Virus record (IMG/VR): IMGVR_UViG_3300035698_000274
Span: 1 to 27,019 of that record
Length of the DNA: 27,019 nucleotides
From: a virus
Reading direction: 5' to 3' (one strand)
This document shows positions 2,978-26,273 of this stretch, one piece after another. The translations under genes and the position numbers were made by a program. Under the pieces are notes generated by a model. That model had not been told where the DNA came from. It did no database searches and was given only the letters and a program-made list of their open reading frames with translations. Positions within the stretch are counted from its first letter, which is position 1. Each line of letters begins with the position of its first letter.

Positions 2978-4141
2978 ATGGCAGATTATCCAATAAGTAA
3001 CGTAGCAAGGAGAGTAGTCTACACTGGCTCTGCTGGTGCAGGACCGTATGCTTTCGAGTTTGAAGTGCTGGAAAACACAGATATTAATGTGTATCAAGAT
3101 GACGCACTTCTGACATTAACAACAGATTACACAGTAACAATTAGCGCGTTACTTGGCACAGGATCGGTTACATTAGTCGTTCCTGCTGCTGGCAGCAATC
3201 GCATCACTATTGTTGGCTCACGGGCTGTAGAGCGTACCACAGACTTTACTACTGGTGGTGACTTCTTTGCTAATACGCTTAATGATGAAATGGATTCTCA
3301 AACAATCCTTGTTCAACAAGTGGCGGAAACTGCTGAACGTTCTATCAAAGCACCTGTTACTGATCCGACTACTATTAACATGGTGTTGCCAATTGATACT
3401 GCTCGTGCTGGCAAGACACTAGCGTTTGATGGTGATGGTAACCCTATTGCTGGCGACCCTATTGGTAACTGGCGTGGAAATTGGGCTGCTGATACATCAT
3501 TCCAGAATCGCGACATTGTTAAAGATACAACAAACAGTAATATTTATCTTGTTATTACTGCCCATACTTCTACTGGAGCATTGCCGATTAGCTCAAATAC
3601 TGACGTTGCAAAATGGGCATTAGTAGTTGATGCAGCAGCAGCAGCAACGGCTCAAGCGGCAGCAGAAGCAGCGCAAGCAGCAGCAGAAACGGCTGAAACA
3701 AATGCAGAAACAGCAGAAACTAACGCTGAAACAGCAGAAACAAATGCGGAAACTGCTGAAACAAATGCAGCTACATCTGCAAGTAACGCAAGCACATCTG
3801 CAAGTAATGCAGCCACCAGTGAAAGTAATGCGGCTACATCTGCAAGCAATGCCTCAACAAGCGAAACAAATGCTGCTGCAAGTGCTGCCTCAGCTGAGCC
3901 TTTACCTACTCAAACCAGTAATGCAGGTAAGTATTTACAGACCGATGGTACGGATGCAACATGGGAAGATGTAACAGGTGGTGGTCCTAGTCTTGGTACG
4001 GATAGTATTATTAGAACAAATGCACAAACTATCAGTGAAAATATAACAATACCGTTAGGTACAAATGGGATGTCTATTGGTGATATTGCAGTTGCTGATA
4101 CATACGCTGTAACGGTTAATGGAAGGTGGATTGTAATATAA
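2978..4141 (+). CDS. Tail fibre, T7 gp17-like N-terminal adaptor plus coiled-coil shaft
   Basis: This 387-residue protein starts 2 bp after the ejection protein. Residues ~1-125 (ISNVARRVVYTGSAGAGPYA, later VERTTDFTTGGDFFANTLND) match the tail-proximal domain of T7-type fibres, which docks the fibre on the tail tube. Residues ~170-215 look like a small carbohydrate-binding-type module (GNWRGNWAADTSFQNRDIV). Residues 236-305 are ten heptads of an Ala/Asn/Thr-rich repeat, expected to form a trimeric coiled coil. The end (PLPTQTSNAGKYLQTDG to NGRWIVI) is a small terminal domain with a normal finish, so the protein is not obviously truncated. At 387 residues it is shorter than T7 gp17 (about 550); separate downstream modules may supply the distal tip. 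Its stop overlaps the next start by one base (TAATG). Confidence 0.88.
   Translation: MADYPISNVARRVVYTGSAGAGPYAFEFEVLENTDINVYQDDALLTLTTDYTVTISALLGTGSVTLVVPAAGSNRITIVGSRAVERTTDFTTGGDFFANTLNDEMDSQTILVQQVAETAERSIKAPVTDPTTINMVLPIDTARAGKTLAFDGDGNPIAGDPIGNWRGNWAADTSFQNRDIVKDTTNSNIYLVITAHTSTGALPISSNTDVAKWALVVDAAAAATAQAAAEAAQAAAETAETNAETAETNAETAETNAETAETNAATSASNASTSASNAATSESNAATSASNASTSETNAAASAASAEPLPTQTSNAGKYLQTDGTDATWEDVTGGGPSLGTDSIIRTNAQTISENITIPLGTNGMSIGDIAVADTYAVTVNGRWIVI
3683..3892 (+). repeat. Ten in-frame 21-bp (heptad) repeats in the fibre shaft
   Basis: The DNA encodes four copies of AETAETN followed by six variants (AATSASN, ASTSASN, AATSESN, AATSASN, ASTSETN, AAASAAS). The period is exactly 21 bp and the copies differ at synonymous sites, so selection is on the protein. 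The repeat gives rise to spurious open frames on the other strand and in other frames, which should be ignored. The number of heptads would set shaft length. Confidence 0.9.
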
Positions 4142-11758: not shown

Positions 11759-12166
11759 CTAAAATGGTATTTCAGATTCTATATCGTCAATTGATTTAGG
11801 TTCTGTCTTTGCGTTACGTTTTACGTTACTAGATACATCCGCACTACCTTCTGACTTGTTGCCTGTCAGCGTGACTGCATTTACACGCAAGCGCAATGAA
11901 GTTCTTTCCTCACCTTCCTTTGTCTTATACTTGTTGGTTGAAAGCTCACCAGTAACACCAATCTTAATTCCCTTGGTAAGAATAGCTGCTAATGATTCAC
12001 CACGTTTGCCAAACAAGCTACAGTCTAGCCAATCTGTCTGTGCCTTATCTCCGTAGCCACTACTTAATGCTAGGCTAAAGCTTAATACTGGTGTGCTGTC
12101 AGGTAAGAAGCGAAGTTCTGCATCTCTTGGTAAGTTTCCTATTGCTGATAATGTATTCATGTTCAT
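11759..12166 (-). CDS. ssb: Single-stranded DNA-binding protein
   Basis: This 135-residue protein has an OB-fold pattern (MNMNTLSAIGNLPRDAELRF, TDWLDCSLFGKRGESLAAIL, KGIKIGVTGELSTNKYK). A flexible Ser/Asn/Lys linker follows, then the acidic C-terminal tip DDIESEIPF that recruits partner proteins in bacterial SSBs. It protects single strands during phage replication and recombination, and sits in a module with the annealing protein and the exonuclease. Confidence 0.93.
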   Translation of the reverse strand: MNMNTLSAIGNLPRDAELRFLPDSTPVLSFSLALSSGYGDKAQTDWLDCSLFGKRGESLAAILTKGIKIGVTGELSTNKYKTKEGEERTSLRLRVNAVTLTGNKSEGSADVSSNVKRNAKTEPKSIDDIESEIPF

Positions 12167-12171
12167 ATCTC

Positions 12172-12372
12172 CTAATAATTAAAGTCTTCGTTTGGTAAAG
12201 CTAAATTAATCCAGCCATCAAAATCCACTGGCAAAACATCAATCTTAAAGCTGATTCCACCGTTTCGCGTTTCATGGGTTTCACCCACCTTAACCCAGTT
12301 GGGTCTTAGTGTTCCGTCTGCACCTTTTACTTGACCGTGCTTTGTAACCAAATTCATTTTCTCGTACTGCAT
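12172..12372 (-). CDS. Small conserved protein between exonuclease and SSB genes
   Basis: The 66-residue product (MQYEKMNLVTKHGQVKGADG, then VGETHETRNGGISFKIDVLP and VDFDGWINLAL) has the look of a small beta domain found next to ssb in other phages, reminiscent of a minimal OB-like strand pattern. Function unknown. Its ATG overlaps the exonuclease stop by one base, so it is translated with the recombination genes. Confidence 0.65.
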   Translation of the reverse strand: MQYEKMNLVTKHGQVKGADGTLRPNWVKVGETHETRNGGISFKIDVLPVDFDGWINLALPNEDFNY

Positions 12373-12986
12373 TAAAGTCCCTCTAATCTTTTAATCACTT
12401 CTGAAACTTCATTATTAAATTCATTTACTTTTGATTCTAATTCTGCAATCAAATCGTCATCACGTTCATAGCGAATAATAAACGACTGCATATTCCAAGG
12501 TAACTCAGGGCAGAAAGACATGAAGTCCACCCAATTGCGCCCAGTACACGCCATCTGCCATGCCATCTGATTCTTATATTTGGCTGGTACACGCCCATCA
12601 AGTAAATATTTAATGTGTGTTTTAGGTGCTGGACATTTAATTTCTAACATCCCATCACTAACAACCAACCCATCAGGACTAGCACCAGACATTGCAATAA
12701 TGGGATGGTCAACAAAAGCAACCTCAGTTACCCACAAGTTGTTTTTAAGTTCATAAGCCACTCGTGCTTGAGGCTCTAGTTCTATCCCGCGCATCATGTG
12801 GCTATTAGTAAAGCCTTCTGTTGCATTGCCTGTTAAACGCTCTGTAACGAGTTCTATTCTGTAATCTGACCTACTAGCTGCCTCACCTGTTTTAATCTGT
12901 GCTATGCAGTCAGAAACTCTACTGGCAGTCACTTTGCCTAAGCGCAGTTTATGCCATTCAGGTGAACCTTGAGTAATTGTGTCCAT
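12372..12986 (-). CDS. YqaJ/lambda-type exonuclease (viral recombinase)
   Basis: This 204-residue protein has the YqaJ series: GSPEWHKLRLGKVTASR (7-23), MMRGIELEPQAR (64-75), GASPDGL with Asp105 and LEIKCPAP with Glu115 and Lys117. These form the PD-(D/E)XK nuclease site. It would degrade one strand of linear dsDNA 5' to 3' and hand the product to the adjacent annealing protein. Length matches the family. It starts on the stop of the annealing-protein gene. Confidence 0.92.
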   Translation of the reverse strand: MDTITQGSPEWHKLRLGKVTASRVSDCIAQIKTGEAASRSDYRIELVTERLTGNATEGFTNSHMMRGIELEPQARVAYELKNNLWVTEVAFVDHPIIAMSGASPDGLVVSDGMLEIKCPAPKTHIKYLLDGRVPAKYKNQMAWQMACTGRNWVDFMSFCPELPWNMQSFIIRYERDDDLIAELESKVNEFNNEVSEVIKRLEGL

Positions 12987-13576
12987 TATGATTCACTCCC
13001 AGCTTTTAAGAGTTCGCTTATTTCGATTGAACGCTTCTTAACTTGCTCCATAGATTCTTTATCGCCATTACATTCCGTCATTGCTTTTTTGTATGCTTCT
13101 TTTAGCTTGTCATTATCTTTTGCCTTGCCTAACTCAGCAAGAACATCATCAATGCTTGCCTTTGGTAAGTCTTCGCCAGCATAAATATACAAGCCAATGC
13201 CAAAGCAAGCTACACATTTAGCTAAACAGCGCATGGTTGAGTCTGAAATACTGCGTGAGTCTGGGTTTTTAATAGCCTTGTTATAATTATCCATCACTGG
13301 CAACTGCATACGTATGGTCTTGCCCAATGCTGTGATGTTGCAAAAAACCATTACTGATTCCCCAAAGTATTTTGGCTCTGGAAATTCCCATGTTGCCATC
13401 GGGTCATTCTCTAGTAATTTATCTACAGCCCAAGCCCATGAGAGGTAAGTTAATTTACCTTTGAGTTCTGTGTGTACGTTTACGTTAATGGTCTTTAATT
13501 CGTTGTAAGTCTTCATTGTGATCTCCTGTTGTTTAAGTTCGTCTGTTACTTCTGCTTGAAATTGTGCTTCACTCAT
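12986..13576 (-). CDS. Single-strand annealing protein, Sak/DUF1071 family
   Basis: The 196-residue product contains the DUF1071 signature LTYLSWAWAVDKLLENDP, ALGKTIRMQLPVMDNYNKAI, and MRCLAKCVACFGIGLYIYAG followed by EDLP. These proteins anneal complementary strands and pair with YqaJ-type exonucleases, encoded here directly downstream with a one-base overlap. The C-terminal ~50 residues are charged and helical. Two in-frame starts each have a Shine-Dalgarno: ATG 13576 (AGGAGTACATA) and ATG 13516 (AGGAGATCACA). The shorter form would lack 20 residues, before the conserved core. Confidence 0.88.
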   Translation of the reverse strand: MSEAQFQAEVTDELKQQEITMKTYNELKTINVNVHTELKGKLTYLSWAWAVDKLLENDPMATWEFPEPKYFGESVMVFCNITALGKTIRMQLPVMDNYNKAIKNPDSRSISDSTMRCLAKCVACFGIGLYIYAGEDLPKASIDDVLAELGKAKDNDKLKEAYKKAMTECNGDKESMEQVKKRSIEISELLKAGSES

Positions 13577-13936: not shown

Positions 13937-14130
13937 TTCAATATCTCCTTAATTCGTTGTCTGCTTTCAGCAATGGATGTCACAACTTTCGTTGTTATCT
14001 TGTGACTGCCATCACTCAGGATAATGCACTCGCCTCTGATTGTCATATCACCATTTCTTGCTCGAAAAGTAAAATCAGCACCAGCTGCACCAAGTTCATT
14101 TAAAAATTGATTAACCGTCTTATCTTGCAT
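13933..14130 (-). CDS. Small unknown protein, mostly beta
   Basis: I place the start at the ATG 14130, inside the 3' end of the upstream gene; the GTG one codon earlier is less likely. The ~65-residue product has an N-terminal helix (VNQFLNELGAAGADFTFRAR) followed by a beta-like pattern (GDMTIRGECIILSDGSHKIT) and a helical end. No family recognised. Confidence 0.6.
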   Translation of the reverse strand: MQDKTVNQFLNELGAAGADFTFRARNGDMTIRGECIILSDGSHKITTKVVTSIAESRQRIKEILK

Positions 14131-14554
14131 CACGTTTTATTCCCTTCTTAACTTGTCTTGCATAGTTGATTGAAAGTGCTGGGTAGTTTTGTGGGTTAGC
14201 TAGAATCTTATCTGCCCATTCCGTACCCGTCTTCACTACTTTCATACTGCTGGCCACTAGCTTTTTAACATTACTGGCGTTCTCTTTACTCTTAGCGTAG
14301 TCAATAACAACTGGCTCATGAGTAATGGCAAAATGCGCTGGCTTGCAAAGTTTGTCAATGTCTATAATCTGTGGCAACTCACGATTAGAATTAACGTGTT
14401 TATCAAATGCTTTGCCAACATCACCTAGAGGGTATTTCATAAGCTTGTCAAACCAGTATCGTTTAGTCGGTTTATCAGGTTGTTTGCGTCCATAAGAACC
14501 CCAAACAGCGTCTAGCATTTCACTAAAATCTTTTGCGTCTTCATCGTATATCAA
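14120..14554 (-). CDS. Possible helicase-loader-like replication protein
   Basis: Translation begins at a TTG that overlaps the initiator gene stop (TTGA), with AAGGGA 8 bp upstream; the next in-frame ATG would remove 12 residues of the conserved-looking helix. The 144-residue product has DAVWGSYGRKQ, then RYWFDKLMKYPLGDVGKAFD and LPQIIDIDKLCKP. This layout (aromatic helix, V-x-x-A-F/Y helix, then P-x-I-x-D-I) is like G39P-type helicase loaders. The tail is Lys-rich. Adjacency to the DUF1376 initiator supports a role in origin opening or helicase loading. Assignment is by pattern only. Confidence 0.55.
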   Translation of the reverse strand: MIYDEDAKDFSEMLDAVWGSYGRKQPDKPTKRYWFDKLMKYPLGDVGKAFDKHVNSNRELPQIIDIDKLCKPAHFAITHEPVVIDYAKSKENASNVKKLVASSMKVVKTGTEWADKILANPQNYPALSINYARQVKKGIKRDAR

Positions 14555-15225
14555 AATGGTTTCCCTTCATCTGGTTGTTCATCTTTCCATCGACCTTGAT
14601 TCAAATATGTTGACGGGTTAGGTATGAACCCATCCTGCCAGCTTTTAGAATTAACTTGCCAAGTAATTGCTTTTAGCACAATTTCCAAATTTGGCTTCTT
14701 GCTTTTCCACAGCGTCCTCGCCTTATCTTTTCCTATTTTTCTAGGATAAGAATTCCAAAATATATCAAAGCCATTATCAATGGCGGCTTTTGCACTAGAT
14801 TTTGATGTTTGGTTAATGGTTAATGGTTCTTGGTTATTGGTTAATGGTTTATGGTTGCCTTTGCGTTCGGTTAGGCTTGGGTTATTTTCGATAACCACTT
14901 GGGTTTTCTTCGGCCTTCCGCCTAGCTTTCCATTGGTACGGTTCACCACTGCTTTTAGATTGTATTCTCGTATCTCCATATCAATTCGTTTTTGATGATA
15001 CCCATCTTTGGACTTTGTAAAAAAATCATTTAAGACATTTTCTAAATCTTTTAACATTTTAGAATCTAAACCTACTCGCCTTAAAACCGTTTCGGTTTCC
15101 AAAGGTATTGGTTTTCCGTCCAGATAATACCAATCAATTAACGAGCGATATATAAAATGCTCAATTGGCGTTAAATGGCCCGTATCTTTTCGATAATCCG
15201 CAATATTGTGTGAATAGTAGTGCAT
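14551..15225 (-). CDS. Replication initiator/organiser, DUF1376 N-terminal domain
   Basis: Residues 1-105 (MHYYSHNIADYRKDTGHLTP, then EHFIYRSLIDWYYLDGKPIP and GGRPKK) match DUF1376, the winged-helix DNA-binding domain of YdaU-type phage replication proteins. Residues ~112-145 form a polar linker that carries the 7-bp DNA repeats. Residues ~152-220 (FDIFWNSYPRKIGKDKARTL, then FIPNPSTYLNQGRWKDE) are the C-terminal domain common to phage replisome organisers. As with lambda O, the gene probably contains its own origin. The start has AAAGG upstream. Confidence 0.88.
   Translation of the reverse strand: MHYYSHNIADYRKDTGHLTPIEHFIYRSLIDWYYLDGKPIPLETETVLRRVGLDSKMLKDLENVLNDFFTKSKDGYHQKRIDMEIREYNLKAVVNRTNGKLGGRPKKTQVVIENNPSLTERKGNHKPLTNNQEPLTINQTSKSSAKAAIDNGFDIFWNSYPRKIGKDKARTLWKSKKPNLEIVLKAITWQVNSKSWQDGFIPNPSTYLNQGRWKDEQPDEGKPF
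14810..14858. repeat. Seven tandem 7-bp TGGTTNN repeats, putative iterons/origin
   Basis: On the plus strand the units begin at 14810, 14817, 14824, 14831, 14838, 14845 and 14852: TGGTTAA, TGGTTAA, TGGTTCT, TGGTTAT, TGGTTAA, TGGTTTA, TGGTTGC. The first five bases are invariant in all seven. The array lies in the linker of the DUF1376 initiator gene. A 7-bp period is not a multiple of three, so it is not a codon repeat. Two bp-level features next to it are a 6-bp inverted repeat GGTTAT/ATAACC at 14880-14896 and AT-rich flanks. This is the layout of lambda-type origins, where the initiator binds iterons in its own gene. Confidence 0.7.
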
Positions 15226-17687: not shown

Positions 17688-18302
17688 ATGACACCGTTTA
17701 AGATACCAAGCAAACCAAGCATAGACTTAAAAGAGAAAAAGCCAGACGCGCGGCGATTCAGTGTAATACCGCTAAGAGCAATGCACGATAAAAGGCTAAC
17801 AAGAGGTGATCTAATCAATCTAATTGCTTTGTGTTCATATTGCTCACCTAACGGGTTCACGTTCGTGGCGCACTCAACCATTGCTAAGCTAAGAGGTGTT
17901 AGCACGCCAGGCGTGTCCAGAACACTTAAGAAGTTAGAGAAGCTTGGATACTTCGAGCAGGTAAGAAAAGGTTATACGGCATTAAGAGGAAGTCTTAAGC
18001 GGGTTATATATGATGAAGACATAGATTTAAGAACACAAGAGAGTAACAGCGGGGTATCAATAGAATCAATCATTAATCGGGAAGAAGAAACTATGAAGCG
18101 AGCAGCAAAGAGAGAAGTAGTTAACGCAGCCAGTAAGGTGAGAGATAACAAGCAGTCCGTTATTGATACAGGTATACAATTCGATCAGGCTCTACTAGCT
18201 GTCAATCACTTCATCAAGACTGATGCAGATCTGTTGAAGCTTGAACATCTCATTACTATCGGTTCGACTGAATCAGAAGTAGTTGAAGCGTTCAAGGTAT
18301 AG
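17688..18302 (+). CDS. Divergent winged-HTH DNA-binding protein
   Basis: The 204-residue product has RRFSVIPLRAMHDKRLTRGD and LINLIALCSYCSPNGFTFVA, then STIAKLRGVSTPGVSRTLKK with LEKLGYFEQV. This is a winged HTH (residues ~35-100) of the kind in phage/plasmid replication initiators and regulators. The second half is charged and helical. It is transcribed away from the early promoter 35 bp off, the usual place for a regulator of that promoter. There is no Shine-Dalgarno before ATG 17688, and a -10-like TGATAAT is so close that the mRNA could be leaderless. Alternative role: replication initiator. Confidence 0.72.
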   Translation: MTPFKIPSKPSIDLKEKKPDARRFSVIPLRAMHDKRLTRGDLINLIALCSYCSPNGFTFVAHSTIAKLRGVSTPGVSRTLKKLEKLGYFEQVRKGYTALRGSLKRVIYDEDIDLRTQESNSGVSIESIINREEETMKRAAKREVVNAASKVRDNKQSVIDTGIQFDQALLAVNHFIKTDADLLKLEHLITIGSTESEVVEAFKV

Positions 18303-26056: not shown

Positions 26057-26273
26057 TGCTTTTAAACTAATGTAAAATTGTATATATTTAAATAAAATAA
26101 TATTGCATTATAAATAATAGTGTGTTATAACACACAATGTGGCATATCACATCTGTGACCCACAATGCAAGATAACTTGACGTTTGGCTAACGTAATTAG
26201 CAAGCAATGGCCCGCTTCGCGGCATACCTCAGCACAAAAAAACTTTATATTAAACCGTTATAGGAGATACAAA
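25829..26273. other. Intergenic region upstream of the capsid gene
   Basis: Apart from the RhuM fragment this stretch is non-coding. It contains the inverted pair ACACTATA/TATAGTGT (about 25866-25906), a 16-bp perfect palindrome (26120-26135), the near-palindrome TCACATCTGTGA (about 26147-26158), a small CCGC-TTC-GCGG hairpin (about 26213-26223) and an AGGAG ribosome site before the capsid start. A separate promoter for the coat gene is likely here, but no clear -35/-10 pair was found. Confidence 0.55.
26120..26135. promoter_or_regulatory. 16-bp perfect palindrome, possible operator
   Basis: GTGTGTTATAACACAC is its own reverse complement over all 16 bases. It is about 140 bp upstream of the capsid start codon and outside any gene. 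The near-palindrome TCACATCTGTGA follows 12 bp later. Such a site is typical of dimeric repressor or activator binding; the binder is unknown. Confidence 0.5.

Follow-up and report, generated by a model that had tools for sequence, protein, structure and literature searches.

A contiguous AACCA iteron array inside a phage DUF1376 initiator gene is conserved as DNA and probably marks a replication origin

Introduction

What is a run of very short direct repeats doing inside the coding sequence of a replication initiator gene? The question is raised by a 27,019-nt stretch of viral DNA (IMG/VR record IMGVR_UViG_3300035698_000274, positions 1 to 27,019; the whole stretch is called the window below), in which an earlier note, made from the sequence alone, had proposed a candidate origin within the gene of the phage's own initiator. 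Annotations still list DUF1376, the domain concerned, as being of unknown function, though it occurs in the initiator genes of many phages and prophages.

Results

The array lies in the linker of a DUF1376 gene

The gene that holds the repeats belongs to the DUF1376 family, matching PF07120 with an E-value of 1.4e-21 and 77.1 bits against a cut-off of 30.1. It also matched the PHROG 'primosomal protein' profile (7e-44), and its C-terminus resembles 'replication initiation protein'; these profile matches agree with the earlier note in pointing to a phage replication initiator. The encoded protein consists of an N-terminal domain (residues 1 to about 92), a linker and a C-terminal helical domain (residues 145-220). 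The structure model predicts a winged-helix layout for the N-terminal domain, with a pLDDT above 90 over most of residues 11-90, and a disordered linker with a pLDDT under 50. Foldseek on the N-terminal domain model returned no significant match, and a second structure comparison placed the RepA_N initiators 4pql, 5kbj, 4pt7 and 4pta, at Z-scores of 4.8-5.4 that are below a trustworthy level, towards the top of many wHTH matches. The RepA_N sequence domain (PF06970) was absent from the Pfam scan at E 0.01, which gave only DUF1376.

Table 1. Coordinates of the initiator gene, its repeats and the following gene in the window.
Feature	Position	Strand	Basis
DUF1376 (YdaU-type) replication initiator gene, holding both arrays	14551..15225	-	Pfam PF07120 1.4e-21; PHROG
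N-terminal DUF1376 domain, predicted winged helix, candidate DNA-binding domain	14950..15225	-	structure model
11-bp-period array, 5′ of the heptamers (AACCCAAGTGG TTATCGAAAAT AACCCAAGCCT AACCGAACGCA on the gene strand)	14862..14905	-	family-level z 16.7 at lag 11
Inverted repeat GGTTAT-TTTCG-ATAACC, within the 11-bp array	14880..14896		sequence; hairpin on folding
AACCANN x7 array (TGGTTNN on the + strand), contiguous 7-bp iterons in the linker	14810..14858	-	sequence and DNA-level conservation in homologues
C-terminal helical domain, exchangeable between relatives	14566..14793	-	model, PHROG, C-terminus comparison
Next gene downstream, weak helicase-loader match, overlapping the initiator stop	14120..14554	-	phrog_2289 E 0.0011; phrog_10105 1.4e-5

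All seven units of the gapless TGGTTNN run that had been described in the DUF1376 linker were located, with TGGTT starting at 14810, 14817, 14824, 14831, 14838, 14845 and 14852, that is at exact 7-bp steps, and on the gene strand the linker reads AACCCAAGTGG TTATCGAAAAT AACCCAAGCCT AACCGAACGCA AAGGC (AACCANN)x7. In a first-order Markov simulation of 60 sequences, each 27 kb long and thus matched to the window in size as well as in dinucleotide composition, the longest run of one 5-mer at an exact period of 7 was two units in 59 and three units in one, and the seven-unit run is thus far above chance level.

The array layout recurs in DUF1376 genes of phages and prophages

IMG/VR was scanned by the DNA pattern AACCANNAACCANNAACCANNAACCA (AACCANN x4), with no protein information, and at least 121 arrays were found. 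Among the 121 arrays listed, 112 lie on the sense strand of ORFs with a DUF1376 domain and at the same place in the linker after the domain; three are in ORFs that carry DUF1376 and are truncated by a contig end, and six look low-complexity or homogeneous. Conversely, homologues were gathered with only the N-terminal domain as query, to keep the linker from influencing the selection; this gave 77 viral and 79 genomic genes. Runs of three or more units at an exact 7-bp spacing were present in 66/77 of the viral and 31/79 of the genomic genes (97/156 in total), and the other 59 of the 156 had fewer than three exact units. The control core TGGTT never exceeded a run of one in these homologues, and the other periods between 5 and 13 gave few or no runs except for 6, with 12 and 14 being the doubles of 6 and 7. 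Arrays were also found in hosts above 60% GC, e.g. Achromobacter, and a single array is present in each of four complete phages that have a run of at least three units. The layout is therefore found again in DUF1376 initiator genes from both phages and prophages of many bacteria, and the suggestion that the pattern is general in DUF1376 phages is borne out by both the listed arrays and the unbiased homologues.

Spacers were heterogeneous in 92/93 arrays. In 274 genomes of the class of Pseudomonas massiliensis, the four-unit pattern occurred in 12, mostly as homogeneous tandem repeats that no long ORF contains; both long-ORF arrays with clearly mixed spacers were DUF1376 genes. A chance or microsatellite origin was rejected on this basis, the unrelated homogeneous repeats being mostly non-coding and the mixed-spacer coding arrays both lying in DUF1376 genes. 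The homogeneous AACCANN tandem repeats of three of these genomes (G089, G092 and G241), mostly outside long ORFs, are unrelated to DUF1376. An inverted TGGTT copy upstream of the array was present in only 15/103 genes, and it was dropped as not conserved. In Vibrio phage 1.183.O (MG592549; L304), a 'CRISPR spacer' annotated at 27814-27843 lies within the DUF1376 gene and adjoins repeat arrays; it looks like a misannotation driven by the repeats.

The AACCA core is selected as DNA rather than as peptide

A protein-level explanation would have a disordered linker whose PLTNNQ repeats grew by slippage and are retained as a spacer or to bind a partner; the predicted disorder of the linker fits it, and tandem DNA slips easily, as the homogeneous AACCANN repeats in unrelated genomes illustrate. 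The coding evidence went the other way. Synonymous codon shuffling within each homologous gene reduced the mean longest run from the observed 5.06 to 1.38. Among 18 independent pairs of close homologues, third-codon-position differences were found at 4/153 sites of the core (2.6%), versus 353/1530 (23%) in the domain and 756/2679 (28%) in the rest of the gene (Fisher P 7e-15), and the two spacer bases differed at 15-18% at first, second and third codon positions alike (core versus spacer, P 3e-10). Supportively, the array of the window differs from that of a 97%-identical relative (L121) only at spacer bases, which changes residues and leaves every core base intact. In repeats defined by their peptide, the codons were AAC in 129/130, CCA in 128/130 and ACC in 122/130 cases; elsewhere, these codons make up roughly half, 38% and 36% of the usage, respectively. 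A peptide repeat lacking the DNA repeat, which the note had named as counter-evidence, was looked for in this way, and the codons are AAC, CCA and ACC almost without exception.

Reciprocally, one DNA unit was found to encode different peptides. Hexamer arrays in DUF1376 ORFs are on the sense strand in 24/25 cases and are read as NQNQNQ (14), PEPEPE/PQPQPQ (9) or TITITK (1); AACCAG hexamers shared by Octadecabacter virus DB2 and Bordetella phage IFTN2 are translated as PEPEP in the former and NQNQNQ in the latter. The unit is not strictly confined to the 7 bp of the earlier note, as other lineages use a 6-bp spacing. In several homologues (L184, L187, L192, L220 and others), the place of the 7-bp array is taken by a 6-bp AACCA array with as many as about ten units, which gives NQNQNQ or other dipeptide linkers, and in Polynucleobacter prophages the 7-bp period is retained with a CACCA core. 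Microcystis phage Mwe-JY08 (L310) has a hexamer array, CCTAACCCTAACCC, at about base 396 of its DUF1376 gene with the peptide PNPNPNP, possibly an AACCC-core variant. With codon choice fixed while residues change, one hexamer used in different frames, and spacers mixed in nearly all arrays, the protein-level explanation of the repeat is rejected on the codon, frame and substitution tests, and we give it next to no credence. The shuffling, substitution, codon and frame tests agree with the proposal that the peptide repeat is a by-product, and the AACCA array is well supported as a cis-acting element selected as DNA.

A second, 11-bp repeat tier abuts the heptamers

In the 77 bp preceding the heptamers, the family-wide match at lag 11 was 0.427 versus 0.337 in synonymous shuffles (z 16.7), and lag 22 was likewise raised (z 11.4); the domain and the post-array region gave a weak 11-bp signal at most. 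The signal of the window gene alone was modest, being matched by 25/1000 synonymous shuffles, and the 11-bp array of the window therefore rests on the family comparison. The 11-bp unit varies by lineage, approximating AGTCGGAACCC (the type of the window), AACGCAATGCG or GACGTTCAACG, and the units abut the heptamers in a near-fixed register across the family. Third-codon-position change between close homologue pairs is lowered here too, to 11.7%. This second repeat tier with lineage-specific units is new relative to the earlier note, whose GGTTAT/ATAACC inverted repeat is real and lies 21 bp from the last unit, but belongs to the 11-bp array and is no separate feature.

The 11-bp unit types cluster on the DUF1376 domain tree with some switches. 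A prophage of Bordetella genomosp. 7 (L203) carries a unit of the AACGCAATGCG type inside the AACCC-type clade, and this switch over closely related DUF1376 domains suggests a linker exchange or a change of specificity. A phylogenetic assignment of the 11-bp units to the DUF1376 domain is tentative at most, the tree clusters being broken by such switches.

On folding as DNA, the AACCA-array strand, which is C/A-rich, was predicted to be unpaired. A site in RNA could profit from this: TRAP reads spaced triplets in RNA, and a TRAP-like, multi-subunit RNA-binding protein reading AACCA repeats in the initiator mRNA might control initiator synthesis. The constant sense-strand placement in DUF1376 genes and the tolerance of either 6- or 7-nt spacing would suit such a reader as well. 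However, the period of the adjacent array stays at 11 bp, nearly one turn of DNA; no known RNA family was found in the window, and no conserved RNA-binding partner was identified. We regard an RNA-level role as very improbable.

The DUF1376 domain is the constant partner of the array

The same array is combined with several unrelated C-termini, and the C-terminal domain is therefore unlikely to be its reader; the constant partner of the array is the DUF1376 domain and not one C-terminal type. Profile matches to the gene directly after the initiator were tallied in 67 relatives, with categories that can overlap, and indicated a DnaC-like helicase loader in 12/67, a P-like helicase loader in 12/67, a DnaB-like helicase in 8/67 and a primase/helicase in 8/67. 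In Acinetobacter phage AbP2, the gene after the initiator is annotated as a replicative DNA helicase; a distant relative in Gordonia phage CheeseTouch carries the annotation RepA-like initiator and lies beside DnaB.

An origin element might also be read by another phage protein or a host protein, such as the helicase loader or a host initiator factor, instead of the DUF1376 domain. AACCA hardly varies over a diverse set of DUF1376 domains, in contrast to the variable 11-bp unit, as a reader outside the domain would predict; yet the hosts span several phyla and both the C-termini and the downstream genes differ, which leaves DUF1376 as the constant partner. We consider a reader other than DUF1376 unlikely, though the least improbable of the rival explanations.

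Sequence context of the array as an origin

An extended AT-rich unwinding region was not found beside the array: AT content was raised by only +0.11 over the first 20 bp after it, and an adjoining AT-rich unwinding element was rejected, as the enrichment ends at about 20 bp. GC skew, which the earlier note had named as a further check, gave a divided result. In AbP2, the skew minimum (42264) coincides with the array (42289-42321); in Thalassomonas phage BA3, Ab105-1phi and the window, it lies 1-3 kb off the array (in the window at ~17.9 kb, about 3 kb away), and in two other phages it is far away. Being mixed and confounded by gene orientation, GC skew was set aside as origin evidence.

The displaced minimum bears on an alternative in which the array is an operator: the initiator would bind inside its own gene for autorepression or copy-number coupling, and replication would start elsewhere, e.g. 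near the skew minimum or at an O-like gene (17688-18302). Iterons can indeed double as copy-number or autoregulatory sites, and the window has this second initiator-like HTH gene on the + strand, which runs divergently from the early genes and matches the O-like phrog_678 at 4.8e-8. Against an operator, no tandem iterons were found in or around the O-like gene, the array lies well inside its gene and not at a promoter, and the array gene is frequently paired with helicase-loader genes. An operator is accordingly rated as improbable, if less so than a site in RNA.

Discussion

Selection on the DNA sequence, a fixed position and polarity, the association with DUF1376 and the helicase-loader neighbourhood are directly supported. 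From these we infer binding of the initiator to the array, unwinding and origin activity, and propose that the array acts in cis as a nucleoprotein site and is most likely the phage origin, or the core of that origin, within the gene of its own initiator (probability roughly three in four). The DUF1376 winged-helix initiator would seat on the lineage-specific, helical-turn-spaced 11-bp iterons and extend from there over the adjoining family-shared 6/7-bp AACCA iterons; this two-tier nucleoprotein complex would open the DNA at the array, and the opened site would then go, by way of the C-terminal domain, to the product of the next gene, a helicase loader or helicase. That the short AACCA array serves for single-strand loading is plausible because of the tolerance of 6 and 7 bp, the constant polarity, the unpaired C/A-rich strand and the lack of an AT-rich region. 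Whether the two tiers form a class of their own, with 11-bp double-strand seats and a near-universal, polar 6/7-bp AACCA track for single-strand loading during opening and helicase loading, is a tentative proposal that we hold to be possible rather than probable. If true, it would define a widespread phage origin class, a counterpart of DnaA-boxes plus DnaA-trios on an unrelated initiator.

The best reading among known systems is an intragenic iteron origin, in outline like those of lambda O and RepA_N, its contiguous units being unusually short and accompanied by a second tier of 11 bp. In lambda, four 18-bp iterons and a 38-bp AT-rich stretch lie inside O (PMC3349717, PMC7466680). The shared traits are direct-repeat iterons placed centrally in the initiator gene, here under DNA-level selection, separate N- and C-terminal initiator domains, and a helicase-loader gene next, which is found in relatives and is a weak match in the window itself. 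The differences are that the present units are contiguous and of 6/7 and 11 bp, that no extended AT-rich part adjoins them, and that DUF1376 is not lambda O; the lambda parallel drawn in the earlier note therefore stands for the intragenic iterons, with much shorter units, and fails for the AT-rich stretch. RepA_N plasmids include pSK41, pTZ2162 and pAD1, and in several plasmids of this kind the iterons lie inside the rep gene. RepA_N initiators combine a wHTH N-terminus with semi-palindromic direct repeats (PLE RepA, PMC7145576). They resemble the DUF1376 proteins in the winged-helix layout that is predicted for the DUF1376 N-terminal domain, the lineage-variable C-terminus and the semi-palindromic direct-repeat iterons, but DUF1376 has no sequence membership in RepA_N, the structural match is weak, and the units here are of 7 and 11 bp. 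Short contiguous iterons with an 11-bp tier are thus a new variant, whereas an origin type wholly undescribed, as once suggested, overstates the case, given the RepA_N precedent for short, contiguous iterons in the gene of a wHTH initiator. Unspaced 7-bp repeats are also the target of the Omega repressor of pSM19035, which acts on heptads in contiguous direct repeats; the likeness ends there, as Omega is a ribbon-helix-helix regulator at promoters, not at an origin. A description of the present arrays was not found in the open-access literature, a scope outside which most subscription journals lie.

The bacterial basal origin unwinding system pairs two repeat types, DnaA-boxes and DnaA-trios (PMC8287927), and the layout invites comparison with it: two adjacent repeat types differ in period, and the shorter may be a landing site for a protein on single-stranded DNA. 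It differs in that no DnaA is involved here, the trios are 3 nt long, and the single-strand role of AACCA is a proposal. As the 11-bp and 6/7-bp layout survives changes of peptide, frame, host GC and C-terminus, it shows with unusual clarity how a cis-acting site can be contained in coding DNA, and the arrays may serve as a sequence signature predicting the origins of DUF1376 phages at near base resolution, metagenomic phages included.

The Rac prophage of E. coli has a similar gene order, with the DUF1376 gene ydaU followed by ydaV, a putative ATP-binding protein that we take to be DnaC-like. K-12 ydaU (L478, 3620-4477), adjoining ydaV, has a suggestive 11-bp periodicity (16/1000) and lacks the AACCA array; a direct link from it to oriJ, the known origin of this prophage, was for that reason reduced to a mere lead.

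Elsewhere in the window, a recombination module on the - strand (11759-13576) comprises a Sak-type annealing protein, a YqaJ exonuclease and an SSB. Coding tandem repeats of 21/42/63 bp lie at 3632-3877 in an Ala/Glu/Thr-rich coiled region of a tail-fibre-like gene, and two copies of a 17-bp AT-rich repeat, AAATAATAGTGCATTAT, are found at 26095-26130, near the window end.
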